A stretch of 64,000 nt of DNA, from assembly GCF_029910215.1 (NCBI RefSeq), contig NZ_CP110395.1:3038001-3102000 (forward strand). The letters run 5' to 3'. Position numbers and translations under genes: made by a program. This document shows positions 4,089 to 19,617 of this stretch, in pieces. The notes beneath the pieces were generated by a model that was not told the origin of the DNA, did not search any database, and worked only from the letters and a program-made list of their open reading frames with translations. This DNA is from Paraburkholderia sp. D15. GTDB lineage: Bacteria; Pseudomonadota; Gammaproteobacteria; Burkholderiales; Burkholderiaceae. The stretch's first letter is position 1. Every line of letters begins with the position of its first letter.

Positions 4089-5288
4089 TCAGTCCGGCCA
4101 GTTGCGGCGCGCGGCCAGCCGGCGCGCGTCGCGTCGATGGAACGGCGTGACGACCGGTTCATCCGCGCCACGCGCCCGTTCCAGCTCGGCCAGAATGCGC
4201 GCGAGCACGACCTGCTCCTCGCCCGGATGCAGATTGCACGGGTCGAGAAAGAAGAAATGCAGTTCCGCTTCGTGATCGCGCACGATCACCGGCGCCTCGC
4301 CCTCGGGCGGACGCGCGAGCGCATCCGCGAGATCCCATGCGGAGATGCCGGCCTGTTTCGGGTCGATATGCAATTTCAGACGGTCGAGCGGATTGCCGGT
4401 CGGATCGGCGTCGATTTCCGCCCACACGCCGTCGCAGCGATTCAGCGATTCGCGCCACAGCGTCAGATAGCCGCGCTCGCGGGCGCGAACCGCGACGTGA
4501 TCGCGCTGCCGCCACTGTTCGAGCGCGACGATCGTGCCGACGATACCTTCCTTGCCGACCTTCATGCCGCGGCCGATGCCGCCGTTCTGGAAATACGCGG
4601 CACGGACCAGCTTTTTCGTGCCCGCGACGATGCCGGCCGTCAGGCCGCCGAGAAATTTGTGCGCCGAATACAGCGCGAGATCCGCGCCGGCCGCGATGAA
4701 ACGCTTGAGGTCGTATTCGGAAGCCGCGTCGACGATCACCGGCACGCCACGCGCATGCGCCAGCGCGACGAACTCCTCGAACGGAATCAGCCCGAACTGC
4801 ACCGTATGATGCGAGACGACATACAGCGCGGCAGCCGTGCGCTCGTTGATGGCGGCGTTCAACTGGTAACCGTGCGCCTCCGTGGCCGCCCCGACCGGGA
4901 CCACGCGCGCCCCCGACAGGCGGATCGCCTGATCCACCGGTGCGCCATAATTGACGAGATGGCCGGTCTGGATCACCACTTCATTGCGCAGCCCGGTGGT
5001 GTCCGGCAGTCGCTCGATCAGGCCGAGGTCGTCGCCGGTCATCGCGGCGGCAATGCCCAGCGTGATCGCCGCCGAACACGACGCGCTCACGTAGCCGGCC
5101 TCGCTGCCGCACGCATCGGCAATCGCCGCCGACGCCTTGCGTTGCAGATCGTCGATCTCGACGAAGTGCGGCAGTATGTGCGCCACCGCGTCGATCACCG
5201 GCGCGCCGACGCTGGACGCGCCCAGACTCGTCATCGTGCCCGAGGCATTGATGACGGCGCGTAAGCCATAACGAGAGCGAATGTCCAT
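4089..5288 (-). CDS. SelA-like PLP-dependent lyase/transferase (DgaE/YhfS-type)
   Basis: A 399-residue fold-type I PLP enzyme of the group containing SelA, DgaE (D-glucosaminate-6-phosphate ammonia-lyase) and YhfS. Key features are N-terminal NASGTMT, the PLP aspartate in VIVDAAS (Asp187) and the Schiff-base lysine in YSAHKFLGG (Lys211). GGAGG lies 6 bases before the ATG. It reads divergently from an IclR regulator and has a RidA gene next to that regulator. RidA removes the enamine/imine intermediates that PLP eliminases release, so a dehydratase or ammonia-lyase acting on an amino acid or amino sugar acid is inferred. SelA itself is unlikely: the protein is about 60 residues short and no selB or tRNA-Sec gene is adjacent. 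Confidence 0.8.
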   Translation of the reverse strand: MDIRSRYGLRAVINASGTMTSLGASSVGAPVIDAVAHILPHFVEIDDLQRKASAAIADACGSEAGYVSASCSAAITLGIAAAMTGDDLGLIERLPDTTGLRNEVVIQTGHLVNYGAPVDQAIRLSGARVVPVGAATEAHGYQLNAAINERTAAALYVVSHHTVQFGLIPFEEFVALAHARGVPVIVDAASEYDLKRFIAAGADLALYSAHKFLGGLTAGIVAGTKKLVRAAYFQNGGIGRGMKVGKEGIVGTIVALEQWRQRDHVAVRARERGYLTLWRESLNRCDGVWAEIDADPTGNPLDRLKLHIDPKQAGISAWDLADALARPPEGEAPVIVRDHEAELHFFFLDPCNLHPGEEQVVLARILAELERARGADEPVVTPFHRRDARRLAARRNWPD

Positions 5289-5406
5289 GAAGCGCCTCCA
5301 ACCTGGTATTTCTTAATTATGGAATATATGTTGTAATTACGGATCAGTCTAGCATACAATCCCCCTGCGTCAACTGGACAAAAACAACCTGCGACAGAGG
5401 AGCACG
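5289..5406. promoter_or_regulatory. Divergent control region of PLP enzyme and IclR genes
   Basis: This intergenic stretch has an AT-rich core (about 5311-5345) that stands out from the surrounding GC-rich DNA. It contains TTAATTATGG, GGAATATATG and the palindrome GTAATTAC (5333-5340). IclR proteins usually bind a short palindrome in their own divergent promoter, and this core is the natural candidate. No -10/-35 pair was assigned with certainty. Confidence 0.5.
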
Positions 5407-6291
5407 ATGGCCCGCACGTCCCGACCTTCCGCGTCGGCAACCTCCGCCGAGAGCACACCTGTCGACCCCGCATCCGTCGACACCCCAGCGCACGCCGGGG
5501 CCGGCACGCCCGCGCCGCGCACGCGCACCAGCGCGCTCGACCGCGCGGTGCAGATTCTCGACGCGCTCCAGCAGGCGAACCGCCCCGCCACCGCGTACGA
5601 GGTCGCGCGCATGGTCGGCGCGCCGCTGTCCACGGTGTATTCGATCATCAACGATCTGGTGGACAAGAATCTGCTCGCGCGCCGTCTCGACGGCACGATC
5701 TGGCTCGGCTCGCGGCTGTACGGTTACGGGCTGACCTACGCGAGTTCGCTCGATTACTTCGCGGTCGCGCACGAGGAAATGGAGCGTCTGTCGGCGGAAG
5801 TCGAGGAGACCGTGCAGGTGTGCGGTCTCGAAGACGGCATGATGGTCGTGCAGCAGATGGCCGAGGGGCCGGGACATTTCCGCGTGACGTCGCGGGTCGG
5901 CAGCCGCGTGCCGCTGAACTGGACCGCATCGGGCCGGCTGCTGGTCGGTCATCTGCCGGACGCCGAGCGCGTCGCGTTCTTCGCGCAGCACGCGCAAAGC
6001 TCGCCGACCGGCCGCGCGGAAACGCGGCCCGAGGTGCTCGCGCGGATCGCCCGCGAAGCGCTCGACGCGAGATTGTCGATCCAGATCGGCGAATCGGACG
6101 CGTCGGTGGCCTGCCTCGCGGCGCCGGTGCTGGATAACAGCGGCGCGTGCGTGTTCACCATTTCGATCGTGATGCCCGAGGCGAAGGCCGAACTCGGCAC
6201 CGAACGTTTCGCGCAAGCCGTGCAGACGGTGGCCGCGCGCATCGAAACGCGCCTCGGCTGGCGCCGCCGCGATGCGGAACCGGCTGCCTGA
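5407..6291 (+). CDS. IclR-family transcriptional regulator
   Basis: A 294-residue regulator. After a Pro/Ala/Thr-rich leader of about 38 residues comes an IclR winged helix-turn-helix (ALDRAVQILDALQ, then EVARMVGAPLSTVYSIINDL). The rest is the IclR effector-binding domain, including LNWTASGRLLVGHL and VACLAAPVLDNSGACVFTIS. The ATG at 5407 follows GAGGAG at 4 bases. Being divergent from the PLP gene and upstream of ridA on its own strand, it probably controls the PLP-porin-permease genes in response to their substrate. Confidence 0.92.
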   Translation: MARTSRPSASATSAESTPVDPASVDTPAHAGAGTPAPRTRTSALDRAVQILDALQQANRPATAYEVARMVGAPLSTVYSIINDLVDKNLLARRLDGTIWLGSRLYGYGLTYASSLDYFAVAHEEMERLSAEVEETVQVCGLEDGMMVVQQMAEGPGHFRVTSRVGSRVPLNWTASGRLLVGHLPDAERVAFFAQHAQSSPTGRAETRPEVLARIAREALDARLSIQIGESDASVACLAAPVLDNSGACVFTISIVMPEAKAELGTERFAQAVQTVAARIETRLGWRRRDAEPAA

Positions 6292-6359
6292 CCGAACCAC
6301 ACGCCAATCCACGCCGGTTCAAACAACCTGATAACCGCTCACCCTCACGACTCCATTCG

Positions 6360-6821
6360 ATGAACTGCTACGACCGGCTGCACACGCGCGGCCTCAAGCT
6401 TCCGCAAGTGCCGACGCCGATCGGCAACTTCACGCACTGCACGCGCGAGGGCAATCTGCTGTTCCTGTCCGGCCAGGGGCCGCTCGACGAACGCGGCGAA
6501 CTGCTCACCGGCAAGGTCGGTGCGACCGTCAGCGCGGAAGAAGCGTACCGTCACGCGCAACTGGTCGGTCTCAATCTGCTGGCCGTGCTGCACAACGAAC
6601 TCGGCGATCTGCGGCGCGTGAAGCGCGTCGTCAAGCTGCTCGGCATGGTCAACGCGGCGCCGGATTTCACCGAGCATCCGCGCGTGATCAACGGTTGCTC
6701 GGATCTGTTCGTCGACGTGTTCGGCGACGCGGGACGTCACTCGCGCTCGGCGGTCGGCGTGGGTTCACTGCCGGGCAATATTACCGTCGAGATCGAGGCG
6801 ATCGTCGCGGTCGCGGACTGA
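6360..6821 (+). CDS. RidA/YjgF-family enamine/imine deaminase
   Basis: A 153-residue member of the RidA family, which hydrolyses reactive 2-aminoacrylate-type enamines made by PLP enzymes. Family marks are LLFLSGQGPLDERGEL near the start, the middle VKRVVKLLGMVNAAPDF and the C-terminal SRSAVGVGSLPGNITVEIEA with the conserved arginine. The frame is open further upstream, but the ATG at 6360 starts exactly where the family begins. No strong Shine-Dalgarno is seen. The gene is 68 bases after the IclR gene and probably protects the cell from the product of the nearby SelA-like enzyme. Confidence 0.87.
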   Translation: MNCYDRLHTRGLKLPQVPTPIGNFTHCTREGNLLFLSGQGPLDERGELLTGKVGATVSAEEAYRHAQLVGLNLLAVLHNELGDLRRVKRVVKLLGMVNAAPDFTEHPRVINGCSDLFVDVFGDAGRHSRSAVGVGSLPGNITVEIEAIVAVAD

Positions 6822-7478: not shown

Positions 7479-9590
7479 ATGACCTCAAAAAATCGCCGTG
7501 ATTTTCTGCGCTCCGCCGCGCATGCCGCCGGTTCCGCCACCGCGCTAAGCATGTTGCCGCTGGGCATCCGCAACGCCCTCGCCATTCCGGCGAACAACAA
7601 GACCGGCACGATCCGCGATGTCGAGCACATCGTCGTGCTGATGCAGGAAAACCGTTCGTTCGACCACTACTTCGGCACGCTGAAGGGCGTGCGCGGTTTC
7701 GGCGATACGCGCGCGATCAACCTGCCGAACGGTCAGCCGGTGTGGTACCAACCGCTCGCCGCGGATGCGGGTTACGTGCTGCCGTTCCGCCCGAGCGCGC
7801 CGAACCTCGGCCTGCAATTCCTGCAGGATCTCGCGCACGACTGGACCAGCACGCACGCAGCCTGGAACGGCGGCCGCTACGATCAGTGGGTGCCCGCCAA
7901 GGGCACCACGACGATGGCCTACCTGACGCGCGACGACATTCCGTTCCACTATCAACTCGCCGACGCCTTCACGATCTGCGACGCGTACCACTGTTCGCTG
8001 ATGGGCCCGACCGATCCGAACCGCTACTACATGTGGAGCGGCTGGGTCGGCAACGACGGCAGCGGCGGCGGCCCCGTGATCGACAACTCGGAACTCGGCT
8101 ACGGCTGGTCCACGTACCCGGAAGTGCTGCAAAGCGCGGGCATCACGTGGAAGATCTATCAGGACATGGGCACGGGTCTGAACGCGAGTGGCTCGTGGGG
8201 CTGGACGCAGAATCCGTACATCGGCAACTACGGCGACAACTCGCTGCTCTACTTCAACCAGTACCGCAACGCGCAGCCGGGCAATCCGCTGTACGACAAC
8301 GCGCGCACGGGCACCAACGCCGCGCAGAGCGACGGCTACTTCGACATCCTCAAGCGCGACGTGCAGAACAACGCGCTGCCGCAAGTGTCGTGGATCGTCG
8401 CGCCGGAAGCGTATTCCGAGCATCCGAACTGGCCGTCGAATTACGGCGCGTGGTACATCGATCAGGTGTTGCAGATTCTCACGTCGAACCCCGAGGTGTG
8501 GAGCAAGACCGTGCTGCTGATCAACTACGACGAGAACGACGGCTTCTTCGACCACATGGCGCCGCCGTTCGCGCCGGCGTCGAGCGCAAACGGTCTGTCC
8601 ACCGTCGACACCAGCAACGAAATCTACGCCGGCAGCGGCAGCACGCCGGCAGGCCCGTACGGCCTCGGCCCGCGCGTGCCGATGCTGGTGGTGTCGCCGT
8701 GGTCGAAGGGCGGCTACGTGTGCTCGGAACTGTTCGACCATACGTCGGTGATCCGCTTCATCGAAAAGCGTTTCGGCCACGACCATAACCTCGGCGAATC
8801 GAACATCACGCCGTGGCGCCGCGCGGTGTGCGGCGACCTGATGTCGGCCTTCAACTTCAGCAACCCGAACGACGCGTTCCCGACGCTGCCGAGCACGAGC
8901 GGCTACGTGCCGCCGGATCAGAACCGTCATCCGGACTACGTGCCGCTGCCGCCGGCGGTGCAGGCGGTGCCGAAGCAGGAGCCCGGCGTGCGTCCGGCGC
9001 GCGCGTTGCCGTACGAACTGTTCGTGCGCGTGCATGGCGAAGGTTCGGCCAACAAGCTGACCATGCGCTTCGTCAATACGGGCCGCACGGGTGCGGTGTT
9101 TCTCGTGTACGCCGCCAACAGCAGCGACGCGCCGCGCACGTACACGGTCGAAGCCGGCAAGCGGCTTCAGGATCAACTGCCGTGCAACGCCGACGGCACG
9201 TACGACTTCACCGTGTACGGTCCGAACGGGTTCCTGCGCCGCTTCGCGGGCAAGCCGGTCGCGCGCAGCTGGTGGAACGGGTCGGACATCGCGCGTCCGG
9301 AAGTGGCCGAAGGCTATGACGTGTCGAACGGCAATCTGCAATTGCGTCTGGAAAACGTCGGCAGCGCGCGCTGCACGTTCACGATCGTCAACGCGTACGA
9401 CGCCGGCAAGCCGATCAAGCACTCGGTGCGCGGCGGCGATACGGATCAGGTCTACCTCGATCTGCGCAATGCGCACGGCTGGTACGACCTGGCGATCACC
9501 GTCGATACGGACCCGACGTTCGCGCGGCGCCTTGCCGGTCACGTGGAAACGGGCAAGAGCAGCATGAGCGATCCGGCGCTGGGGAGCTAA
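7479..9590 (+). CDS. plcN: Non-hemolytic-type phospholipase C, Tat-exported
   Basis: A 703-residue phosphocholine-type phospholipase C of the acid phosphatase/PLC superfamily. It hydrolyses phosphatidylcholine-like lipids outside the cytoplasm. A twin-arginine signal (NRRDFLRS, Arg6-Arg7) is followed by a hydrophobic run ending near ALAIPA. The catalytic region starts with QENRSFDHYFG (Glu57 onwards), and YDENDGFFDHM appears later. The last 200 residues fit the two C-terminal domains seen in bacterial PLCs. The ATG at 7479 was chosen because it puts the RR motif at the very start. Hemolytic versus non-hemolytic activity cannot be decided from sequence. Confidence 0.92.
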   Translation: MTSKNRRDFLRSAAHAAGSATALSMLPLGIRNALAIPANNKTGTIRDVEHIVVLMQENRSFDHYFGTLKGVRGFGDTRAINLPNGQPVWYQPLAADAGYVLPFRPSAPNLGLQFLQDLAHDWTSTHAAWNGGRYDQWVPAKGTTTMAYLTRDDIPFHYQLADAFTICDAYHCSLMGPTDPNRYYMWSGWVGNDGSGGGPVIDNSELGYGWSTYPEVLQSAGITWKIYQDMGTGLNASGSWGWTQNPYIGNYGDNSLLYFNQYRNAQPGNPLYDNARTGTNAAQSDGYFDILKRDVQNNALPQVSWIVAPEAYSEHPNWPSNYGAWYIDQVLQILTSNPEVWSKTVLLINYDENDGFFDHMAPPFAPASSANGLSTVDTSNEIYAGSGSTPAGPYGLGPRVPMLVVSPWSKGGYVCSELFDHTSVIRFIEKRFGHDHNLGESNITPWRRAVCGDLMSAFNFSNPNDAFPTLPSTSGYVPPDQNRHPDYVPLPPAVQAVPKQEPGVRPARALPYELFVRVHGEGSANKLTMRFVNTGRTGAVFLVYAANSSDAPRTYTVEAGKRLQDQLPCNADGTYDFTVYGPNGFLRRFAGKPVARSWWNGSDIARPEVAEGYDVSNGNLQLRLENVGSARCTFTIVNAYDAGKPIKHSVRGGDTDQVYLDLRNAHGWYDLAITVDTDPTFARRLAGHVETGKSSMSDPALGS

Positions 9591-9752: not shown

Positions 9753-11042
9753 TCACGCCGCCACGGCCGTCGTTCGCGACTCGCGTTTGCCTGCCTCGTC
9801 CGCGATGGTCTGCACGATGAACTCGGCGTCGCGCGCAATCCCCGAGAAGCGCCCCGATCCCCACGTATGCAGCCATGGCAGTCCGACGAAATACAAGCCG
9901 TCGATCGGCGTCACGCCGCGCGCATGGGCCGGATAACCGCGTCCGTTGAACACTGGCGCGTCGAGCCAGCTGAAATCCGGCGTGAAACCGATGCACCAGA
10001 CGATCGCCGCAATCCCGCTGGCGTCGATGTCGAGCGTCGTGCGCTCCCCGGACGGCTGCCACACCGGTTCGTACGCGCCGCCGGCCGGCACATCGATCCC
10101 CTGCTTCGCGATGAAGCTGTCGATGCTCGCGTTGATGCGGTTATACACGGCGTCGGCCGCATCGAGACTGGCGGCCAGCGTCGGCGCGAAATGAAAGCGG
10201 CCGTCGCGCAGATCGTCGAGGCGGCCATACAACTCCATGCCCTCGGCGGCGAACCGGCGCAGATCGATATCGCGTCCGCCGTCGCGGCCGGTCACGTAGT
10301 GATTGGTGTTATCGCGCACCCCTTCGCGCAGCGGATGCTGTTCGACCGGCATGTCGTAATACTGCATGTCGGCGAGCCAGTCGACCACGTCGCGGCCGCG
10401 ATAGAAGCGCGCGCAACGTGGCGCCTCGCCGACCGCGAGCACCACCTTGCGTCCGGCCAGATGCAGATCCTCGGCAATCTGCGCGCCGGATTGTCCCGTG
10501 CCGACCACCATCACCACGCCGTCGGGCAACGCCCGCGGGTTGCGATACGCGGACGACTGCATCTGCACGATCCGCGCGGGCAAGCGCTCGGCGAGGCGCG
10601 GCACGATCGGCGTGTGATAGCCGCCAGCGGCCACCACCAGTCGATCGGCGGTGAAGTCGCCCTGCGTCGTCGCGATCGCATATACGCCGTCGTCGCGCCG
10701 TTTCGCGCGTTTGACTTCGGTGCGTTCGAGCACCGGCGCGCCGACATGTTCGATGAATCCGTCGAGGTACGCGACGATCTCGTCCTTCTTCATGAAGCCG
10801 TGCGGATCGTCGCCGCGATACGGATAACCGGGCAGCGCGCATTGCCAGTTCGGCGTGACCAGACAGAACGCGTCCCAGCGCTGTTCGCGCCAGGTGTGCG
10901 TGACCGTGTTCTTCTCGACGACCAGATGATCGATGCCGGCCTGCGTCAGGTAATAGCTGATCGACAGACCCGCCTGCCCGCCGCCGACGACGAGCACGCT
11001 GTAATGTCCATCGGCGCGCGCGGGTTGTTCTCGATTCGACAT
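9753..11042 (-). CDS. Nit1C flavoprotein, MSMEG_0569-like FAD/NAD(P) oxidoreductase
   Basis: A 429-residue flavin-dependent monooxygenase-like enzyme. It has an N-terminal FAD-binding GGGQAGLSISYYL, a second Rossmann motif VVGTGQSGAQIAEDL near the middle, and a C-terminal GLYFVGLPWLHTWGSGRFSG. The frame is open upstream, but the ATG at 11042 follows AGAGGA and puts the FAD motif at residue 18. It is the last gene of the seven-gene Nit1C-type operon, matching NitH/MSMEG_0569. Its reaction is unproven; oxidation of an intermediate made by the nitrilase or radical SAM partner is inferred. Confidence 0.88.
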   Translation of the reverse strand: MSNREQPARADGHYSVLVVGGGQAGLSISYYLTQAGIDHLVVEKNTVTHTWREQRWDAFCLVTPNWQCALPGYPYRGDDPHGFMKKDEIVAYLDGFIEHVGAPVLERTEVKRAKRRDDGVYAIATTQGDFTADRLVVAAGGYHTPIVPRLAERLPARIVQMQSSAYRNPRALPDGVVMVVGTGQSGAQIAEDLHLAGRKVVLAVGEAPRCARFYRGRDVVDWLADMQYYDMPVEQHPLREGVRDNTNHYVTGRDGGRDIDLRRFAAEGMELYGRLDDLRDGRFHFAPTLAASLDAADAVYNRINASIDSFIAKQGIDVPAGGAYEPVWQPSGERTTLDIDASGIAAIVWCIGFTPDFSWLDAPVFNGRGYPAHARGVTPIDGLYFVGLPWLHTWGSGRFSGIARDAEFIVQTIADEAGKRESRTTAVAA

Positions 11043-11068
11043 GATGCGTCCTCTACGAAAATGAGCGG

Positions 11069-11353
11069 CTAGCTGAAACCGATAATCCTGACCGTCGCGC
11101 CGGGCCGGTCGCGATAGCGCGCCGCATCGCGTTCGATCTGCGCGAGCTGATCCAGCGCGGCCGAACACGCGAAGCCGTATTTCTCGCGCACCCGCTCCGA
11201 CGCGATGCCGAGCGCCTGCCGCGAACGGGCGACGAATTCGTCGAGCGCGTACACGTCGCCCGCCGAGAAGAACTCGCCGACCACGCGCGACGGCGAATAG
11301 CAGCTCGCCTCTTCGCCGTCGGGCCATTGAATATGAAAGTGAGTGACGGGCAT
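11069..11353 (-). CDS. MSMEG_0570-like nitrogen-starvation family protein
   Basis: A 94-residue protein without signal or membrane segment, resembling the MSMEG_0570 family (NitG position). It begins PVTHFHIQWPDGEEASCYSPS and contains FSAGDVYALDEFV, typical of this short family found only beside the other Nit1C genes. GAGGAA precedes the ATG by 5 bases. It sits between the AIR-synthase-like and flavoprotein genes with gaps of 9 and 26 bases. Function is unknown; it may be an accessory or carrier-like partner. Confidence 0.82.
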   Translation of the reverse strand: MPVTHFHIQWPDGEEASCYSPSRVVGEFFSAGDVYALDEFVARSRQALGIASERVREKYGFACSAALDQLAQIERDAARYRDRPGATVRIIGFS

Positions 11354-11362
11354 CGCGATTCC

Positions 11363-12391
11363 TCAACGCGTGGCGGGCAACGCATCGTCCGGCGGTTGCA
11401 TCGCGGGTCGTTCGCTATCACCTTCGCCGGCCATGAACGCTTCACGCTCGAAGTCCCACAACACCGCCGTCTCTTCCCGCCGATGCAGAATCACCTGACG
11501 CGGCGCGTGAACCACACCGATCACCGAACACGCGAGCGAGCGTTCGTCGAACAGCGCCTGTACCGCCTCCACGTGATGTTCACGCACCGACAGCAGATAG
11601 CCGAAGCTCGGAAACGCCGTCACCCAACGCGACAACGGCACGTCATCCGGTTTCGGAATCCGTTCGAGGTCGATGCGCGCGCCCACCTGCGAGCACTCGA
11701 GCAACATCAACGCGGTACCGAGCGCGCCCGCCATGCTGATGTCCTTCGCCGCATCGCACAGCCCGCTTTCCGCGAGATGCGGCAACACGTCGAGATCGCC
11801 GCGCAGACGTTCCGGCGGCGCACCGGTCGACGCATTCCAGAACGGATACGGTTCTTCGAAGCGTCCGCGCAAATCGGCCGCCATCATCAAACGGTCGCCC
11901 GGCTTCGCGTGAAAACTCGACAGCAAGGTCTTCGCGCGGCCAACGATCGACACCGCCAGTTGCGCGGCCTCGCTGCGCGTATTCGTATGACCGCCGACAA
12001 TCGGCACGCCATACGCGGTGGCGGCCGCGGCCATGCCAGCCAGCACGTCTTCCGCCGCGCCGAGGCCCGGGCTCCACAACGCATCCACCACGGCCAGCGG
12101 ACGGCCGCCCATCGCATAGATATCGCTGACGTTGACCATCACGCTGCTGTAGCCCGCGAACCACGGCATCGCGTCGACGAAATCGCTGACCATGCCTTCG
12201 ATCGCGAACAGCAGATAGCCGTCGCCCTCCGCGAGCGCCGCGCAGTCGTCGCCGAGCGCGACCGCCTGATCGAGATCGCGGGCGCCGCGCGGCAGACGTC
12301 TCGCCAGCGCATCGACCACGCCGGCGATATCGGTCTTGTGCAGAAAGCCGCGACTCGCGCGCAGACCGGCGACCAGTTCGGCGACACTCAT
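11363..12391 (-). CDS. AIR-synthase-like ATP-binding protein (sll0787/NitF type)
   Basis: A 342-residue protein of the PurM/AIR synthase superfamily, related to HypE, ThiL and SelD. Marks are LGDDCAAL, the NVSDIYAMGG motif, VGGHTNTR and SMAGALGTALMLLE. Members form dimers and use ATP to phosphorylate a substrate carbonyl or carboxylate. It starts with an ATG that overlaps the stop of the GNAT gene (ATGA, 12388-12391), so the two are translationally coupled. It corresponds to sll0787-family proteins of the Nit1C cluster. Purine synthesis is excluded by context and by divergence from PurM; the natural substrate is unknown. Confidence 0.87.
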   Translation of the reverse strand: MSVAELVAGLRASRGFLHKTDIAGVVDALARRLPRGARDLDQAVALGDDCAALAEGDGYLLFAIEGMVSDFVDAMPWFAGYSSVMVNVSDIYAMGGRPLAVVDALWSPGLGAAEDVLAGMAAAATAYGVPIVGGHTNTRSEAAQLAVSIVGRAKTLLSSFHAKPGDRLMMAADLRGRFEEPYPFWNASTGAPPERLRGDLDVLPHLAESGLCDAAKDISMAGALGTALMLLECSQVGARIDLERIPKPDDVPLSRWVTAFPSFGYLLSVREHHVEAVQALFDERSLACSVIGVVHAPRQVILHRREETAVLWDFEREAFMAGEGDSERPAMQPPDDALPATR

Positions 12392-13062
12392 GCCGCGCTC
12401 CGTGCGCCAACCTCGGCCGCGTCCGAGGTTGTGGCTTCCGCTCGTGGAGACACGACCTGCGTGCGCGTGACAAAACCGCCGTTCGGCGTGGTGCACGGCG
12501 GATACCAATCCAGTTGCGCCCGCATCAAATGATGCGGACGGCCGAGCAGCGTTTCCTCCGCGAGCGTGTCCCAATGCATCGCGTTAAAGAGCGGCACGTT
12601 CTGGCTCTGTACATGGGCGAGGAAGGTCTCGCAACCCAGCGCATGCGCGCTGCTGACTGCGAGCCGGATCAGCGTCGCGCCGATCTTGCCGTGACGCCGG
12701 AACGCCGCGTGCACCGCCAGCCGCGAACCGAACCACACGTTGCCGCGATCGCGATGAATGCGCACGGTGCCCACCACCTGCTCCGGCATGCCGGCCACGC
12801 AACTGAGCGCGACCAGTTGCTGCGCGTGGCGGTCGATCTCGTCGCGATCGTCGCCGACGAAAATGCCCTGCTCGATGCAGAACACCGCGCGCCGCAAGCG
12901 GAACGCCTGCTCCGCTTCCCAGTCGAGCGTGGTCCACTTGATGCGGAATTCGTTCGGCGTATAAGGCGTAGCGGGAATGCGAGGCGCGTGGCGTTCATCG
13001 CTGACGCGCCCGCTCCGGGCTTCCGCATCCGGCGCCAGACCGGCAATCGCTTCACCAAACAT
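12388..13062 (-). CDS. GNAT-family N-acetyltransferase (MSMEG_0567/NitE type)
   Basis: A 224-residue protein with a GNAT fold: FRLRRAVFCIEQGIF near residue 70, VVGTVRIHRDRGNVWFGSRLAV, then the acetyl-CoA loop region RRHGKIGATLIRLAV. The C-terminal YPPCTTPNGGFVTR is typical of the Nit1C subtype. The start at 13062 lies 2 bases after the radical SAM stop, and the stop overlaps the next start. It would acetylate, or otherwise use acetyl-CoA on, an amine product of the pathway. Substrate unknown. Confidence 0.87.
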   Translation of the reverse strand: MFGEAIAGLAPDAEARSGRVSDERHAPRIPATPYTPNEFRIKWTTLDWEAEQAFRLRRAVFCIEQGIFVGDDRDEIDRHAQQLVALSCVAGMPEQVVGTVRIHRDRGNVWFGSRLAVHAAFRRHGKIGATLIRLAVSSAHALGCETFLAHVQSQNVPLFNAMHWDTLAEETLLGRPHHLMRAQLDWYPPCTTPNGGFVTRTQVVSPRAEATTSDAAEVGARSAA

Positions 13063-13064
13063 GC

Positions 13065-14177
13065 TCACACCTCGTACGATGAAAGCGACGAACACGCGCC
13101 GCATTTGCCGCAGCCAGCCTTGATATCCGACGAACGCATCGCCGCCTCTTTCAGCATCGCGCCGAGCGGTTGCAACACGGTCTTCATGAATGCCGGCGTC
13201 GGTGCGGGATGATCTTCGAGCGGCGTGCCGCTGATCGGCACGAACGGCACCACGAACGGATACACGCCGAGCGCGATCAACTCGCGCGACATCGCGAGCA
13301 TCGCTTCCGCGCTATCGCCCAGGCCCGCGAGCAGGTAGGTGCTGACCTGTCCGCGCCCGAACACCGCGACCGCCGCCTTGAACGCATCCATGTAGCGCGA
13401 CAGCGGCACGCTCGCCTTGCCCGGCATGATGCGTTCGCGCAGCGCGGGCGTCACCACTTCCAGATGCATGCCGAGCGTATCGATGCCGCTCGCCTTCATG
13501 CGCGCGAACCAGCGGTCGTCGTCGGGCGGTTCGCATTGCGCCTGGATCGGCAGATCCACCGCGGCCTTGATCGCGAACGCGCTGTCGCACAGTATCTGCG
13601 CGCCGCGATCCGGCGTCGGCGGCGTACCCGTGGTCAGCACCATGTGCTTCACGCCGTCGAGCAACACCGCCGCGCGCGCCACTTCCGCCAGTTGCTCCGG
13701 CGTCTTGCGCGCGATCGTGCGGCCCGCCGCGAGCGACTGGCCGATCGCGCAGAACTTGCAACTCTTGCGGCGGCTCTCGTAGCGGATGCAGGTCTGCAAT
13801 ACCGTGGTCGCCAGTACGTCCGCGCCGTGCAGCGTGGCGATCTGCGCGTACGGCACGCCGTCGAGCGTCTGCATGGCGTAGAAACGCGGCGCCTTCGGAA
13901 AGCTCACGCTGGCGATCGGGATCGTGCCGCGCAGCAGCGCGCTCGTGCCCGCCGCGTCCGGCGTCTGCGCGACGAACGGCGAATGCCATGCGCTGCTCGT
14001 ATGCACGGGCACCATGATCGTCACGCCGTCCACCGTCACGGCCTTGTGGTCGGACGGCCCCGCGCCGCCCCGGCGGCTTGCCGCGCCCGCATCCGGCGAC
14101 ACCAGCCGCAGGCCGGCCGACTGCAACTCAGTCATCAATTGCCGGCTCGCGGCCGACGGCGTCTCGCTGGCGTTCAT
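13065..14177 (-). CDS. Radical SAM protein, MSMEG_0568/NitD type
   Basis: A 370-residue radical SAM enzyme. The cluster motif is Cys130-x9-Cys140-x2-Cys143 ([14 protein letters not shown]), longer than the usual CX3CX2C, followed by [13 protein letters not shown] and the barrel. A second cysteine group, CGKCGAC (Cys356, Cys359, Cys362), near the C-terminus suggests an auxiliary Fe-S site. It overlaps the nitrilase end by about 50 bases if the first ATG is used; a Met15 start also overlaps. It matches the MSMEG_0568 family of Nit1C clusters. The reaction is unknown; a radical rearrangement or Fe-S-dependent step on a nitrile-derived compound is inferred. Confidence 0.88.
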
Positions 14178-15177
14178 CGCCTTCTCCGGTGGAAAGGAAA
14201 TCGGTATCGGCGGCGCCGGACCACGCCGGCATCGGCGCGACGGTTCCGGCGGGCCGCCGGTTGATCGCGAGACTCAGCAACTCGGGACGCGCGTAATGGC
14301 CGACCGAATCCATCATCCGCTTGCGCTTGGTGATCAACGCCATGTCGAGATCGGCGATCACCATGCCCTCGCCCTCGCGCAACGGCGGCGCGAGGTGCTG
14401 CCCTTCCGGCGACACGATCGCGGTATTGCAGCCGCCACGCAGCGCCTTCTGCAAACCCGGGTCGGCGCTCACCGAGGCAATCTGCGCCTCGCTCAGCCAA
14501 CCGGTCGCATTGACGACGAAGCAGCCCGACTCCAGCGCGTGATGACGGATCGTCACCTCGATCTGATCGGCGAAGATCGGCCCCACCAGCGAACCCGGGA
14601 ACTGGCTGCAATGAATCTCTTCGTGCTGCGTCATCAGCGCATAGCGCGCGAGCGGGTTGTAATGCTCCCAGCAGGCGAGCGCGCCGACCCGCCCGAGCGC
14701 CGTGTGCGCAACTGTCAAGCCGGCCGCGTCGCCCTGCCCCCAGATCATCCGTTCGTGAAACGTCGGCGTGATCTTGCGGCGCTTGAGCAGCAGGCGGCCG
14801 TCCACGTCGAAGATCAGTTGCGTGTTGTAGAGACTGCCGTGATCGCGTTCGTTGACGCCGAGCACCACGACCATGCGATGCAACCGCGCCTGCTCGGCCA
14901 CCGCCTGCGTGACCGGACCGGGCACCACCACGGCCTGCTCGTACAGCTTCATGTGCTCGGCGCCGGATGCGACCGGCGGCCTCACGAACGAAAAGTACGG
15001 GTAATACGGCACGAAGGTCTCGGGAAAGACGATCAGTTGCACGCCTTCGCGCGCGGCCTTGCCGATCGCCTCGCACACCTTGTCGAGCGTGCCGCCGGCG
15101 CGTTCGAAGTCGGGTGCGATCTGCACCGCGGCGGCTCGCACCACGCGTTTGCCGGGCATGTCTGATTTCTCGGCCAT
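14128..15177 (-). CDS. Nit6803-type nitrilase (Nit1C nitrilase)
   Basis: A 349-residue cytoplasmic nitrilase (C-N hydrolase superfamily). The triad is Glu53 ([11 protein letters not shown]), Lys135 ([11 protein letters not shown]) and Cys169 (ACWEHYNP); as recalled, these are the same numbers as in Synechocystis Nit6803. The ATG at 15177 is preceded by GGTGATC, complementary to the 16S 3' end; a GTG at 15186 with GGAG upstream is the alternative. It is gene two of the operon. Family members convert aliphatic or aromatic nitriles to acids plus ammonia, and homologues are tied to cyanide assimilation in Pseudomonas. The true substrate is open. Confidence 0.92.
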
Positions 15178-15196
15178 GGTGATCACCCGCGCTCCG

Positions 15197-15679
15197 TCAG
15201 ACCGTCCATGTGTGAATGACCAGTGCGTTGTCCTTGCGATGCAGTAGCTGCAGATCGAGCACGTCGAGCGGATTGATCGGGCGGATGCCCTCGATCAGCG
15301 AAGCCTCGCCATGCCCGTAGAGCGCCTGCAATGCAAAGCGGCACGCGTAGACCTTGCCGCCCTCTTCCATGAACTTCGTCAGTTGCTTGTTGAAGTTCAG
15401 GTGACCGGGAAACGCCTCGTCGCCGAGTGTCGGGAAGCCGCGTTGCAGACCGAGCGTGACGCCCGGCCCATACAGCAGCACCGAGGTCTCGAAGCCCTTG
15501 CGTTGCAGACGCGTGGCCTGCAGCATGTTGACGAAGCCGATCGAGCCTTCGAACGCGACCGTATGAAACGTGACGAGCGCCTTTTCTCCGGGTTCGGCTT
15601 TCACATCCTCGAAGACTTTCTCCTCGTAGTCGACGAGATAGTCGCCCTTCTGATGCAGCGGTTTATTGACGGCTGGCAT
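15197..15679 (-). CDS. Sll0783/MSMEG_0572-family protein (NitB type)
   Basis: A 160-residue soluble protein of the Sll0783/MSMEG_0572 nitrogen-starvation family. It contains [35 protein letters not shown] and a cysteine in [16 protein letters not shown]. The pattern resembles a DsrE/sulfur-relay-like fold with a single conserved Cys, though this is an inference. GGAGAG lies 4 bases before the ATG. As first gene of the Nit1C operon it directly follows the sigma54-like promoter. In Synechocystis the homologue was linked to polyhydroxybutyrate formation under nitrogen starvation; mechanism unknown. Confidence 0.87.
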
Positions 15680-15747
15680 GACACTCTCCGATCAGGTTCA
15701 CTAAGTAAAGTCCGGCGCGCTTCAAGTTCTCACGCACGGTCCTTAAT

Positions 15748-15762
15748 GCAACGCCCATGCCA
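15748..15762 (-). promoter_or_regulatory. Sigma54 (-24/-12) promoter for the Nit1C operon
   Basis: On the minus strand the sequence TGGCATGGGCGTTGC has the exact GG-N10-GC spacing and near-consensus -24 (TGGCAT) and -12 (TTGC) elements, followed by AT. Transcription would start about 12 bases downstream, leaving a leader near 57 bases before the sll0783-like gene. Sigma54 control fits a nitrogen-scavenging operon, and Nit1C clusters are often preceded by a Fis-type sigma54 activator gene. No such activator is present here. Confidence 0.6.
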
Positions 15763-15788
15763 TTGATCGGCCGCGCGAATGCGATCAA
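15763..15788. promoter_or_regulatory. Inverted repeat abutting the Nit1C promoter
   Basis: TTGATCG and CGATCAA are separated by 12 bases and begin directly upstream of the -24 element. The right arm belongs to GCGATCAATC, which recurs at 15959-15968 next to the mocR start. A regulator bound here would touch RNA polymerase, so it could repress or activate. Confidence 0.5.
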
Positions 15789-15958
15789 TCGACAATCAAT
15801 TCCGCCTCGATTCGAAGTCCGACACAAAATTTTTTAGGTGCGAAGTTTGCATACAGCGCAGCACGGCCGCGCCGGCGCCTTCGCCGCGTTGCCGGCGCAC
15901 CAGCCGGGTGCGATTGCGTGGTGAACGCGTGTCGGCGTGGTGCAGTCATTCACCACGG

Positions 15959-15997: not shown

Positions 15998-16031
15998 ACC
16001 GTCGTCCTGTCCAAAGCGCAGACTGCACACG

Positions 16032-17423
16032 ATGAATAGCCCGACCCATCACTGGATCAAACGTCTCGCCGACCTTCGCAAGCCGGCCTATCTCGCGATT
16101 CCCGATCTGATCGAGGAAGACCTCGCCACGGGCCGGCTGCGTCCGCGCGACCGCCTGCCCGGTCTGCGCGATCTCGCCGAGGAACTCGCGCTGAACTACA
16201 CGACGGTCGCGCGCGCGTACGCGGAGGCTCGCAAGCGCGGCCTGCTCGATTCGCGCGCGGGCAGCGGCACGTTCGTGCGCGGGCGCACCGCGACCTTGCC
16301 GCTCACGGGCGGCAGCAGCATCGAAATGTCGATGAACACGCCGCCCGAACCGCCCGACTACGCGAACCGTTTGCGCGACTCGGCCGCGCGCCGCATGGCC
16401 GAGTGCGACCCTTACCAGTTGCTGCGTTATCAGGACTTCGGCGGATCGGCCGCCGATCGCGACGCGGGCGCCGCGTGGCTGCGCCGCCGCGTGCCGCACG
16501 CGGATGCGCAGAACGTGCTGGTGTGTCCCGGCATTCACAGCGCGCTGGTGGCGCTGGTGTCGCAACTCGCGCGGCCCGGCGGCACGATCTGTCTCGACAC
16601 GCTCGCGTATCCGGGCATCAAGGCGATCGCCGCGCAACTCGGCGTGCGTCTGCAGGCGCTGCCGCGCGACGACGAAGGCCCGCTCGCGCACGCGTTCGAA
16701 GCGCTCTGCAAAACCGACAAGCCGTGCGCGTTCTATTGCAATCCGACCTTGCAGAATCCGAGCACGCTGACGCTCACGCACCAGCGCCGCGAGGCGCTGG
16801 CCGATGTCGCGCTGCGCTACAGCGTGCCGCTCATCGAGGACGACGCGTATGCGATGCTGCCGCACGGCGCGCCCGATGCGCTCGCCACGCTCGCGCCCGA
16901 GTTGACCTACTACGTGACGGGTATGTCGAAGAGTTTCGGCGCCGGCTTGCGCGTCGCCCATCTGCATGCGCCGACGCCCCGGCAAACGCAGCGTCTGGCC
17001 GGCGCGCTGCGCGCGACCACCGTGATGGCGAGTCCGTTCACGGTGACGCTCGCCACGCAATGGATCGTCGACGGCACCGCGCTCGACATGCTCAACGCGA
17101 TCCGTCACGAGTCGCGCGCGCGTCAGGCGATCGCCGCGCGGCAACTCGAAGCGTGGCCGTTCGACGCGCATCCGGACGGTTTTCATCTATGGCTGCCGGT
17201 GCCCGCGGCGAGCGGCTGGAGCGCATCCGAACTCGCGCTGCAATTGCGCAACCAGGGCATCGCCGCCGTCGCGGGCGCGGCATTCTCGACCGATGGGAAT
17301 CCGCCCAACGCGATGCGCGTATGCCTCGGCGGTTCGAAGACGCGCGACGAATGCGCCGAGGCCTTGCATATCGTCGCGGAGACGCTCGACCATCCGCATC
17401 ATCTGCACTCGCCGGTGATGTAG
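16032..17423 (+). CDS. MocR-family regulator (GntR wHTH fused to PLP aminotransferase fold)
   Basis: A 463-residue transcription factor. Residues 10-85 form a GntR winged helix (RPRDRLPGLRDLAEELALNYTTVARAY). The rest is a fold-type I aminotransferase domain with the PLP lysine at Lys300 in TGMSKSFGAG and IEDDAYAMLPHGAP upstream. MocR proteins use PLP and an amino compound as inducer. The ATG at 16032 begins the family-typical N-terminus. It is divergent from the Nit1C operon and is the natural candidate to control it, in place of the Fis-type NitA described in other bacteria. The inducer is unknown. Confidence 0.92.
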   Translation: MNSPTHHWIKRLADLRKPAYLAIPDLIEEDLATGRLRPRDRLPGLRDLAEELALNYTTVARAYAEARKRGLLDSRAGSGTFVRGRTATLPLTGGSSIEMSMNTPPEPPDYANRLRDSAARRMAECDPYQLLRYQDFGGSAADRDAGAAWLRRRVPHADAQNVLVCPGIHSALVALVSQLARPGGTICLDTLAYPGIKAIAAQLGVRLQALPRDDEGPLAHAFEALCKTDKPCAFYCNPTLQNPSTLTLTHQRREALADVALRYSVPLIEDDAYAMLPHGAPDALATLAPELTYYVTGMSKSFGAGLRVAHLHAPTPRQTQRLAGALRATTVMASPFTVTLATQWIVDGTALDMLNAIRHESRARQAIAARQLEAWPFDAHPDGFHLWLPVPAASGWSASELALQLRNQGIAAVAGAAFSTDGNPPNAMRVCLGGSKTRDECAEALHIVAETLDHPHHLHSPVM

Positions 17424-17817
17424 ACCGATCTGTCTTCGCGGATTTTCGATGCGTCTTCGACGGGTCTTCGTCGGGTCTAGGACGGGTCTTCGTCGGGTCT
17501 AGGACGGGTCTTCGTCGACTTGCACGCGTTATCGTCAGACGAATACAACGCTTCGTGACCGGTGCAGCAGCTCGCCACGCCTTGCGCCATGCGGGTTTCC
17601 GCGCATGCTGAAAAGATCCGCGCGACGAAAAATTTTGTGTAGGATCGCGCCCAGCCGCCACAAGCGGCTCACGGGCGGCTCGCCGGCAGGTTTCCAGGGC
17701 CGCTGTCACAAACTGAAAGCATTACCTGCTCAAGTCCCAACTGCTCACGCCGTATACCTCCATGAGGCGCCCGCTTCACCGACTACGGCTCACTGCTCAC
17801 TCCGAAAGACTCCCGAC
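17424..17817. other. Intergenic region between mocR and the chemoreceptor
   Basis: About 394 bases without a convincing gene. It begins with a tandem repeat (17459-17517, listed separately). The remainder holds the presumed promoter of the chemoreceptor gene. The sequence ACTCCGAAAGACTCCCGAC just before the ATG shows only a weak Shine-Dalgarno. Confidence 0.5.
17459..17517. repeat. 22-bp tandem repeat, about 2.7 copies
   Basis: Perfect copies occupy 17459-17480 and 17481-17502, with a partial third copy (15 bases) to 17517. Each copy is built from GACGGGTCTTC followed by GTCGGGTCTAG, themselves near-duplicates. The array sits just after the mocR stop. It may be a slippage-generated minisatellite. 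Confidence 0.85.
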
Positions 17818-19617
17818 ATGTTCTCTACCATTCGCGCGCGCATCGTCGCCCTGTGCGTCGCCATCGTTGTGGTTGCACTCGCCACCAACGCGGCGCTCAA
17901 CTATGTCGTCGCCAATTCGTACAACGCCGACGCGATCGAAAGCAGTCTGAATGCAGTCGAAAGCGGTCACGCGGACGGGATCGACGACTGGGTCGTCACG
18001 CACAGCCAGATGATCAAGTCGTTGCAGGACACGGTGCTGCAACCCGATCCGACCGCGGCGCTCAAGCAGATCGCCGCCGCGGGCAAGTTCACCAACGTGT
18101 ACGTGGGCTATGCGGACAAGACCACCAAATTCTCCGACCCCGCCGGCATTCCGCCCGACTACGATCCGACCAGCCGTCCGTGGTACAAGCAGGCCGCCGC
18201 CGCGGGCAAGCCGGTCGTCACGCCGCCGTACGTCGACGTGGGCACGGGCAAGCTGGTGGTCGCGTTCGCGGTGCCGGTGGTGCGCGACGGCGCGGTCAAG
18301 GGCGTGGTCTCCGGCGACGTCGCGATGGACAGCGTGATCGCCAACGTCAAGGCGATTCATCCGACGCCCGCGAGCTTCGGCATGTTGATCGACGCGAGCG
18401 GTCATATCGTCGCGCATCCGGATGCGAAGCTGACCCTGAAGCCGGTCTCCGATATCGCCCCGGCCCTGACCAGCGACAAACTGGCGGCGCTGTTCGGCGC
18501 CGAGCATCCGCTCGAAGTCGACGTGAACGGCAGCGCCAAACTGCTGCGCGCCCAGGCGATTCCGGGCACCGACTGGTACGCGGTGGTCGCGCTCGACAAG
18601 GCCGAAGCGACCGCCGGCATGCGTTCGCTGCTGACCGCCTCGCTGATCGCGCTGATCGTGATCGCCGGCATCGCGGCCGCGATCGTGGCCGCGGTCACCG
18701 CCGTGTCGTTCAAGCGCCTGTCGAACGTGCGCGACGCGATGGACGCGATCGGCTCGGGCGAAGGCGATCTGACCCAGCGTCTGCCGGCCGAAGGCAACGA
18801 CGAAGTCGCGCAGATCGCGCGCTCGTTCAACACCTTCATCGACAAACTGAGCCACGTGATGCGGCAGATTCGCGACGCGAGCGAATCGGTGCGTGTCGCC
18901 GCGAATGAAATCGCCGCGGGCAACGTCGATCTGTCGGGCCGCACCGAATCGGCGGCGGCGAGCCTGCAGCAAACGGCCGCATCGATGGAAGAAATTACGT
19001 CGACCGTCACGCAGTCGGCGAGCGCCGCGAAGCAGGCCGACGACTCCGCCGTCTCCGCATCGCATGTCGCATCTCGCGGCGGCGTGGTGATCGCCGAAGT
19101 GATTACGACTATGGGCGAAATCGAACACGCGTCGGTGAAGATCGCCGATATCATCGGCGTGATCGATGGGATCGCGTTCCAGACCAACATTCTCGCGTTG
19201 AACGCGGCGGTGGAAGCAGCCCGTGCCGGCGAACAGGGCCGCGGTTTCGCGGTCGTGGCCGGTGAAGTGCGCAGCCTCGCGCAACGCAGCGCGCAGGCCG
19301 CCAAGGAAATCAAGGCGCTGATCGAATCGACGGTGGCAAGCGTCACGTCGGGCTCGGGTCAGGTGCGCCAGGCCGGCGAGACGATGACCGAAATCGTCAG
19401 CAACGTCGCCAACGTGACCACCATCATCTCCGAGATCACTCAGGCCGCGAACGAACAGACGCGCGGCATTCAGGAAGTGAATCGCGCGGTCAGCCAGCTC
19501 GACGAAATGGTTCAGCAGAACGCCGCGCTGGTCGAGCAATCGACCGCGGCCGCCGCCGCATTGCAAAGCCAGGCGGTAAGCCTCGCGGGCGCGGTCACGC
19601 AATTCAAGCTGGACTAA
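17818..19617 (+). CDS. Methyl-accepting chemotaxis protein with dCache sensor
   Basis: A 599-residue transmembrane chemoreceptor. TM1 spans about residues 8-28. A periplasmic dCache_1 domain follows ([19 protein letters not shown], then VVFAVPVV-type strand and GDVAMDSVI). TM2 is near 278-305 ([18 protein letters not shown]), then HAMP and a cytoplasmic signalling hairpin with [20 protein letters not shown]. There is no C-terminal CheR-tethering pentapeptide. dCache receptors of this type commonly sense amino acids or organic acids. The start at 17818 was chosen because TM1 follows directly. The next chemoreceptor gene begins 40 bases downstream, so the two may be co-transcribed. Confidence 0.93.

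Follow-up and report, generated by a model that had tools for sequence, protein, structure and literature searches.

A window of 64,000 nucleotides (nt) from Paraburkholderia sp. D15, taken from 3.04-3.10 Mb on contig 1 of a host genome of 8.3 Mb in three contigs, contains seven genes which, judged by the family profiles of their products, form a bona fide Nit1C operon (nitBCDEFGH) in a variant without glycosyltransferase. The operon appears to be transcribed from a conserved sigma-54 promoter and to be controlled by a divergently encoded MocR regulator of the pyridoxal phosphate (PLP) type. We put the probability of this reading, which was drawn from sequence comparison, at about 0.7. The Nit1C cluster itself is already known, having been described since 2005 from several phyla. 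The control region and the divergent MocR gene lie beyond the coordinates of the earlier note on this DNA; they are conserved and, as far as literature searches go, apparently undescribed.

Conservation was evaluated in three sets of loci. For the host genus, 60 of 96 places with NitB were taken as long regions and counted as loci when nitB showed more than 70% identity; three paralogous regions at 59% identity (L053, L054, and L090) were set aside, leaving 57 loci. The even phylum sample yielded 18 genomes with a match, from which two weak ones (L105 and L106) and two that were already included were removed, leaving 14 loci. The named set comprised 80 loci from beta-, alpha-, and gammaproteobacteria, e.g., Cupriavidus, Marinobacter, Methylobacterium, Rhodomicrobium, and Serratia. 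The co-occurrence of MocR and NitB was scored from per-genome best matches in 88 NitB-positive and 56 NitB-negative host-genus genomes.

NCBIfam profile models with curated cut-offs served as the family test for the Nit1C proteins. All seven cluster products scored above the cut-off of the respective Nit1C family (TIGR04042-04046, 04048, and 04049), as follows.

15197..15679, minus strand: nitB, ORF1, Sll0783/MSMEG_0572 family (TIGR04044, 290 bits; cut-off, 110)
14128..15177, minus strand: nitC, Nit6803-type nitrilase (TIGR04048, 578 bits; cut-off, 503)
13065..14177, minus strand: nitD, radical SAM protein (TIGR04043, 599 bits; cut-off, 304)
12388..13062, minus strand: nitE, GNAT acyltransferase (TIGR04045, 237 bits; cut-off, 68)
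11363..12391, minus strand: nitF, AIR-synthase-like protein (TIGR04049, 479 bits; cut-off, 321)
11069..11353, minus strand: nitG, MSMEG_0570 family (TIGR04042, 130 bits; cut-off, 80)
9753..11042, minus strand: nitH, flavin-dependent oxidoreductase (TIGR04046, 679 bits; cut-off, 498)

The genes are tightly spaced on one strand at 9753-15679 in the order ORF1-nitrilase-radical SAM-GNAT-AIRS-ORF6-flavoprotein. The earlier note had reported seven minus-strand genes in this order and had named them Nit1C, and the profile scores confirmed both the order and the name. It had also described gaps of 2-26 bases, an ATGA overlap, and a 50-base overlap, which agree with the distances measured from the most plausible starts (B-C, 19 nt; C-D, −50 nt; D-E, 2 nt; E-F, −4 nt, at ATGA; F-G, 9 nt; and G-H, 26 nt); nitC has an alternative start, GTG at 15186. 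The identical gene order was found in 56 of 57 host-genus loci and 69 of 80 named loci. All seven nit genes were retained in 56 of the 57 host-genus loci, and the remaining locus ends with its contig. Chance is not a realistic alternative explanation for a seven-gene match.

The description of the cluster as complete holds for the seven families, all of which are present, but not for an MSMEG_0565-type glycosyltransferase that most loci of the genus carry. nitF and nitG were separated by more than 1 kb in 41 of the 56 host-genus loci having both genes and in 37 of 72 named loci. Every insert of this size encodes a relative of one glycosyltransferase, and none of the shorter gaps does; the copy of locus L138 belongs to the MSMEG_0565 family (TIGR04047, 532 bits; cut-off, 260). 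In the host, nitF and nitG are 9 nt apart. A TIGR04047 profile search of the host genome gave no gene above the cut-off and 21 weaker matches, the best at 87 bits, indicating that the glycosyltransferase was either lost here or never gained.

Several conserved residues were found in the Nit1C proteins. NitC matched the solved nitrilase structure 3wuy (E 1e-147), and all nitrilase motifs were matched in 127 of 152 NitC stretches, some of which are truncated. The motif C-x9-C-x2-C was present in 135 of 135 NitD proteins. Cysteines 18 and 63 of NitG were invariant in an alignment of 23 sequences, and the predicted structure of NitG (pLDDT 89) had no PDB match at E 0.001. NitE weakly resembles the N-acyl amino acid synthase FeeM (31 bits). 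In NitB, Cys113 was invariant, and the predicted structure of this protein matches the DsrE/YchN fold. The likeness of NitB to the DsrE/TusD/YchN sulfur carriers concerns a predicted fold; its cysteine aligned with that of DsrE/TusD-like carriers only in a sequence match that was not significant (E 0.9).

The Nit1C cluster was defined by Podar et al. in 2005 (PMC1199592), who already placed ORF1 tentatively in the YchN fold. The host cluster shares with the published Nit1C all seven families, the proteobacterial gene order, and nitH as the last gene, but it lacks the extra glycosyltransferase described between ORF5 and ORF6 in Burkholderia (PMC1199592). Podar et al. were unable to find binding sites conserved upstream (PMC1199592), whereas a conserved promoter and conserved boxes were found in this study. 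The control region of the host contains the following features.

15747..15762, minus strand: sigma-54 promoter before nitB with −24 GG and −12 GC elements, TGGCATGGGCGTTGCA (pattern TGGCAY-N5-TTGC, GG-N10-GC)
15763..15769, minus strand: inverted box copy abutting the −24 element, a minority feature of relatives
15779..15798, minus strand: tandem boxes TGATTG-N5-TGATCG plus CAT, repeating every 11 nt, a candidate MocR operator whose second box stops at 15782, 19 nt ahead of the −24 TGG
15896..15912, no strand assigned: palindrome CGCACC-N5-GGTGCG, located 150 nt upstream of the −24 element, a candidate enhancer of the NtrC type
16029..17423, plus strand: MocR-type regulator gene, divergent from nitB, proposed eighth Nit1C member (GntR domain PF00392, 49 bits; aminotransferase-like domain PF00155, 92 bits)

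A sigma-54 promoter was located 45-140 nt before nitB in 57 of 57 host-genus, 12 of 14 phylum, and 78 of 80 named loci, compared with 80 of 16,000 random windows (0.5%). In the 64-kb window, the sigma-54 pattern had one match at zero or one mismatch, namely the nitB promoter, with zero mismatches. Shuffled sequences averaged 2.7 such matches, so the lone match in the window proves nothing, and the evidence for the promoter is therefore its conservation across loci. The −24/−12 element itself is plainly present in the sequence, and from its conservation we infer that the nit operon is transcribed from it.

The divergent gene encodes a protein with the build of the MocR subfamily, a GntR DNA-binding domain joined to a class I aminotransferase-like domain. 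It lies next to nitB and diverges from it in 57 of 57 host-genus, 13 of 14 phylum, and 68 of 80 named loci. Among the 12 other named loci, mocR was located elsewhere within the locus in 10, and none was seen in 2; one of these two, L200, stops 483 nt upstream of nitB. A MocR orthologue with at least 61% identity was detected in 88 of 88 NitB-positive host-genus genomes and in 0 of 56 NitB-negative ones, where the best MocR identity was about 37-41% among the matches listed. The other MocR genes of the host genome showed at most 31% identity over long matches. Over 78 loci, protein distances of MocR were correlated with those of NitD (r 0.88) and NitC (r 0.81) no less closely than those of NitC and NitD with each other (r 0.75). 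These comparisons show that mocR was inherited together with the nit operon. Lys301 and Arg430 were invariant in 79 of 79 aligned MocR proteins; from knowledge of the fold, we take these residues to be the PLP carrier and the carboxylate binder, respectively.

The nearest NCBIfam model for the host MocR was EnuR/EhuR (NF052286), at 382 bits and under the curated cut-off of 480. The EnuR/EhuR proteins of ectoine use (PMC8739950) have the same two-domain build; EnuR acts on a sigma-70-type promoter, whereas the host MocR adjoins a sigma-54 promoter. MpaR of Pseudomonas aeruginosa (PMC10790758) is also a MocR-type regulator and has cyanide-linked targets, and sensing of a PLP cyanohydrin was proposed by its authors. 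It differs from the host MocR in the palindromic ATCTGAT site and predicted −35/−10 promoter described for it.

Searches of plasmid records with NitB and with MocR each gave matches in 374 Klebsiella and 30 Escherichia records; among the Klebsiella matches listed, the MocR relative was 52.5% identical. A NitB-MocR unit probably travels on plasmids, the two sets of matches having been counted separately rather than paired record by record.

The tandem boxes between mocR and the promoter were conserved in both sequence and position. The strict pair TGATYG-N5-TGATYG was present in 57 of 57 host-genus and 66 of 80 named loci, compared with 30 of 5,700 (0.5%) and 87 of 8,000 (1.1%) random 220-nt windows for the genus and named sets, respectively. 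The pair ended 19 nt before the −24 TGG in 56 of 57 host-genus loci and 54 of 65 named loci; in the remaining named loci, the distance was 18 nt in 6 and 28-30 nt, about one helical turn further, in 5. Motifs of two or three direct repeats occur in 27% of MocR regulons (PMC5320631). Seven boxes were counted in the control region of the host, and extra TTGATCG boxes lie near the start of mocR. The exact 20-nt operator occurs only once in the whole 8.3-Mb genome.

Because MocR proteins lack an ATPase domain for acting on sigma-54, an enhancer-binding protein is needed. The consensus of an NtrC enhancer is GCACC-N5-GGTGC, located 100-200 nt upstream. The palindrome before nitB contains the looser core GCAC-N7-GTGC; taken alone it is not above chance, with 3 matches at up to 2 mismatches in the window versus 3.6 expected. 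Of 21 close loci, 18 have this core 149-151 nt upstream, and one more has it at 161 nt. In the host genome, this core occurs 110-140 nt before a sigma-54 site twice, at the nit operon and at a nirB-like gene. The latter is cut by the locus end and scored below the full-length cut-offs (559 versus 578 bits and 607 versus 883 bits). The nirB gene of Burkholderia cenocepacia is NtrC dependent (PMC5491218).

Some observations speak against an NtrC site. The core palindrome was missing in the other two groups of the genus (1 of 27, at 95 nt, and 0 of 9). The bare palindrome GCACC-N5-GGTGC was not enriched genome-wide, with 16 sites versus 18 for the reversed control, and the genome-wide count was rejected as a means of recognizing the site in favor of the combined geometry of core and promoter. 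Of the 15 other palindrome sites, 14 were inspected; 11 lie under long open frames, and at two, L248 and L256, a sigma-54-like match lies no more than 350 nt away. The match at L256 has an ATGC −12 element and joins under a looser promoter pattern, so the pairing of nit and nirB depends on the pattern chosen. On balance, activation by NtrC is likely in the host clade; beyond this clade, given that the other two groups of the genus lack the palindrome, it is unproven.

In Pseudomonas oleovorans CECT 5344, nitA, which encodes a sigma-54-dependent regulator, precedes the cluster (PMC11049912, PMC8567248). The host shares with this nitABCDEFGH system the structural genes and sigma-54-type control, but its window has a MocR gene and tandem boxes instead of nitA. 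The linked nitA-like enhancer-binding regulator of a NitA-type Nit1C was absent from the host locus: the PF00158 profile had 25 matches in the genome, none of them inside the 64-kb window, and a GAFTGA-type motif was not found in the 13.5-kb own locus. A different arrangement was observed in the genus of G333, in which NitB was found in 10 of 149 genomes. In the 1.5 kb viewed upstream of these 10 loci, MocR and the boxes were both missing in all 10, and an enhancer-binding open reading frame was present in 8, with none seen in 2. All 10 had the variant promoter TGGCAC-N4-TTCGCT, in which the GG-N10-GC frame is kept. These loci look like the published NitA arrangement, which only 1 of the 14 phylum loci showed.

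According to the mechanism that we propose from these sequence features, MocR would bind the tandem boxes and gate the nitB promoter, and in the host clade NtrC would activate from the palindrome about 150 nt upstream. The operon would need nitrogen limitation and a small PLP-reactive effector together. The effector might be an amine, an amino acid, or an aminonitrile, or cyanide as a PLP cyanohydrin. A MocR protein of CECT5344 (BN5_1899) appears to repress a cyanide-induced cluster (PMC8567248, citing unpublished data). Because of this apparent repression and of the PLP-cyanohydrin proposal for MpaR (PMC10790758), an effector derived from cyanide or a nitrile is, by analogy, a reasonable first guess, held with low confidence. 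The nitrilase would free ammonia from a nitrile, and the synthesis or modification of this nitrile, or of what is formed from it, would fall to the radical SAM, AIR-like, GNAT, flavin, and DsrE-like proteins. In a broader form that we consider tentative and below an even chance, the ancestral proteobacterial Nit1C would be an eight-gene system in which a PLP-MocR at helically fixed boxes senses cyanide, a nitrile, or an aminonitrile by its PLP aldehyde and forms a two-key switch with NtrC, and NitA would be a later replacement.

The earlier note had favored a multistep small-molecule pathway over simple nitrile hydrolysis. The gene set, the NitD motif, the DsrE-like NitB with its invariant cysteine, and the optional glycosyltransferase fit such a pathway better, but a catabolic role stays live because Pseudomonas growth on cyanide depends on nitC. 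One form of such a pathway, the biosynthesis of a small secreted or signaling metabolite during nitrogen starvation, is given somewhat less than even odds. The nitrilase would then be a tailoring enzyme, and the optional glycosyltransferase would decorate the product. This is consistent with the enzyme mix of the seven families, with the frequent glycosyltransferase gene between nitF and nitG, and with the weak likeness of the GNAT protein to FeeM. However, there is no transporter among the seven nit genes, and no product is named in the portions of the Nit1C literature consulted. Podar et al. found no genes conserved beyond the cluster (PMC1199592), and the neighbors surveyed here were MocR, a phospholipase, and a chemoreceptor.

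The assimilation of cyanide or nitriles, in which the nitrilase would obtain ammonia by hydrolyzing cyanohydrins, with accessory roles for the other proteins, is also possible, although we hold it somewhat more doubtful. Cyanohydrin hydrolysis needs the nitrilase alone, yet nearly all host-genus loci keep all seven genes. In favor of assimilation, nitC of P. oleovorans CECT 5344 is required for growth on cyanide and contributes to the use of 3-cyanoalanine (PMC11049912, PMC8567248), and both the CECT5344 MocR and MpaR of P. aeruginosa act on cyanide-responsive genes (PMC8567248, PMC10790758). In Synechocystis, by contrast, the first gene, sll0783, is induced by nitrogen starvation, and its loss affects polyhydroxybutyrate and the NADPH balance; the authors could not pin down its function (PMC3901256). 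The main text of a nitrogen-starvation paper on Paraburkholderia phymatum contains no mention of "nitril-," radical SAM, or MocR.

With respect to control by MocR, the competing explanation is that MocR and the sigma-54 promoter are mere neighbors. MocR would then regulate something else, itself or the adjacent chemoreceptor gene, and the boxes would bind a different factor, for instance IHF or an enhancer-binding protein. An architectural protein is often required close to the position of the boxes at sigma-54 promoters, and the extra TTGATCG boxes by the mocR start fit autoregulation. Several further observations count against control of nitB by MocR. Of the 10 named loci with mocR at a distance from nitB, 6 lacked the strict boxes, and locus L148, which has no linked MocR, still has a strict pair. 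In the phylum sample, the strict pair was found in only 3 of 14 loci; in several others the boxes read TTGAATG, TTGTATG, or TTGACTG. A relaxed pattern matched 11 of the 14 phylum loci with at most one mismatch (background, 3.4%), but this pattern was defined after those sequences had been viewed. The genus and named sets, having species in common, are not independent of each other, and the inverted box by the −24 element is a minority feature only.

We nevertheless consider the neighbors-only explanation unlikely. The boxes stayed with nitB in 4 of the 10 loci with a moved mocR (L173, L187, L192, and L208), and boxes and MocR were jointly missing in all 10 NitA-type loci. The exact operator is unique in 8.3 Mb, unlike the sites of global factors, and direct-repeat motifs such as these are common in MocR regulons (PMC5320631). 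As a separate candidate, the inverted box over the −24 element was considered as a general repressor site and rejected; among loci with the promoter, it was present in 16 of 57 from the host genus, none of 12 from the phylum sample, and 17 of 78 from the named set, against a background of about 1.8%.

If MocR does control the operon, a conserved PLP-type regulator would provide an experimental handle, in that a compound bound by MocR should be a substrate, an intermediate, or a mimic of one. The clusters with MocR, 13 of 14 in the phylum sample, widen the picture beyond NitA of Pseudomonas. Control of Nit1C during nitrogen starvation is exerted via NtcA in cyanobacteria and via GlnR in mycobacteria. 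If the sigma-54 link is true, the Proteobacteria would, like these two groups, have placed Nit1C under their own control system for nitrogen starvation. Searches of open-licence PMC articles, preprints excluded and with the survey PMC5320631 covered in its main text, did not turn up any paper that describes a MocR regulator of Nit1C or places a MocR protein at a sigma-54 promoter. A partnership of MocR with sigma-54, if true, would thus be one for which no report was found in that literature.

Locus L148, from Caballeronia sp. dw_19, is a reduced locus in which only nitB, nitE, and nitH were recognized and the sigma-54 site and the boxes were kept. The paralogous regions L053, L054, and L090, with NitB at 59% identity, come from two host-genus genomes (G120 and G030); in L054 and L090, the paralogous NitB adjoins a nitrilase at 83%.

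The cluster of the host is flanked by two genes that were kept in a minority of the relatives. A gene for a dCache-domain chemoreceptor is located just past mocR (17815-19617, plus strand) and was kept there in 11 of 57 host-genus loci. In P. oleovorans, a chemoreceptor gene was found only in nit1C-bearing strains (PMC11049912), and chemotaxis to a nitrile or cyanide is therefore worth a look. On the other side, a gene for a phosphocholine-specific phospholipase C (7479-9590, plus strand; TIGR03396, 909 bits) converges on nitH and was kept in 18 of 57 host-genus loci. Elsewhere in the window, genes grouped at 4089-6821 encode proteins related to a DgaE-type PLP ammonia-lyase, to an IclR-type regulator, and to the Rid family, each scoring below the curated cut-off of its model. 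Of the five 2-kb steps between 50000 and 60000, four have a G+C content of only about 0.59-0.60, compared with about 0.65 elsewhere, and this part of the window is possibly acquired DNA.

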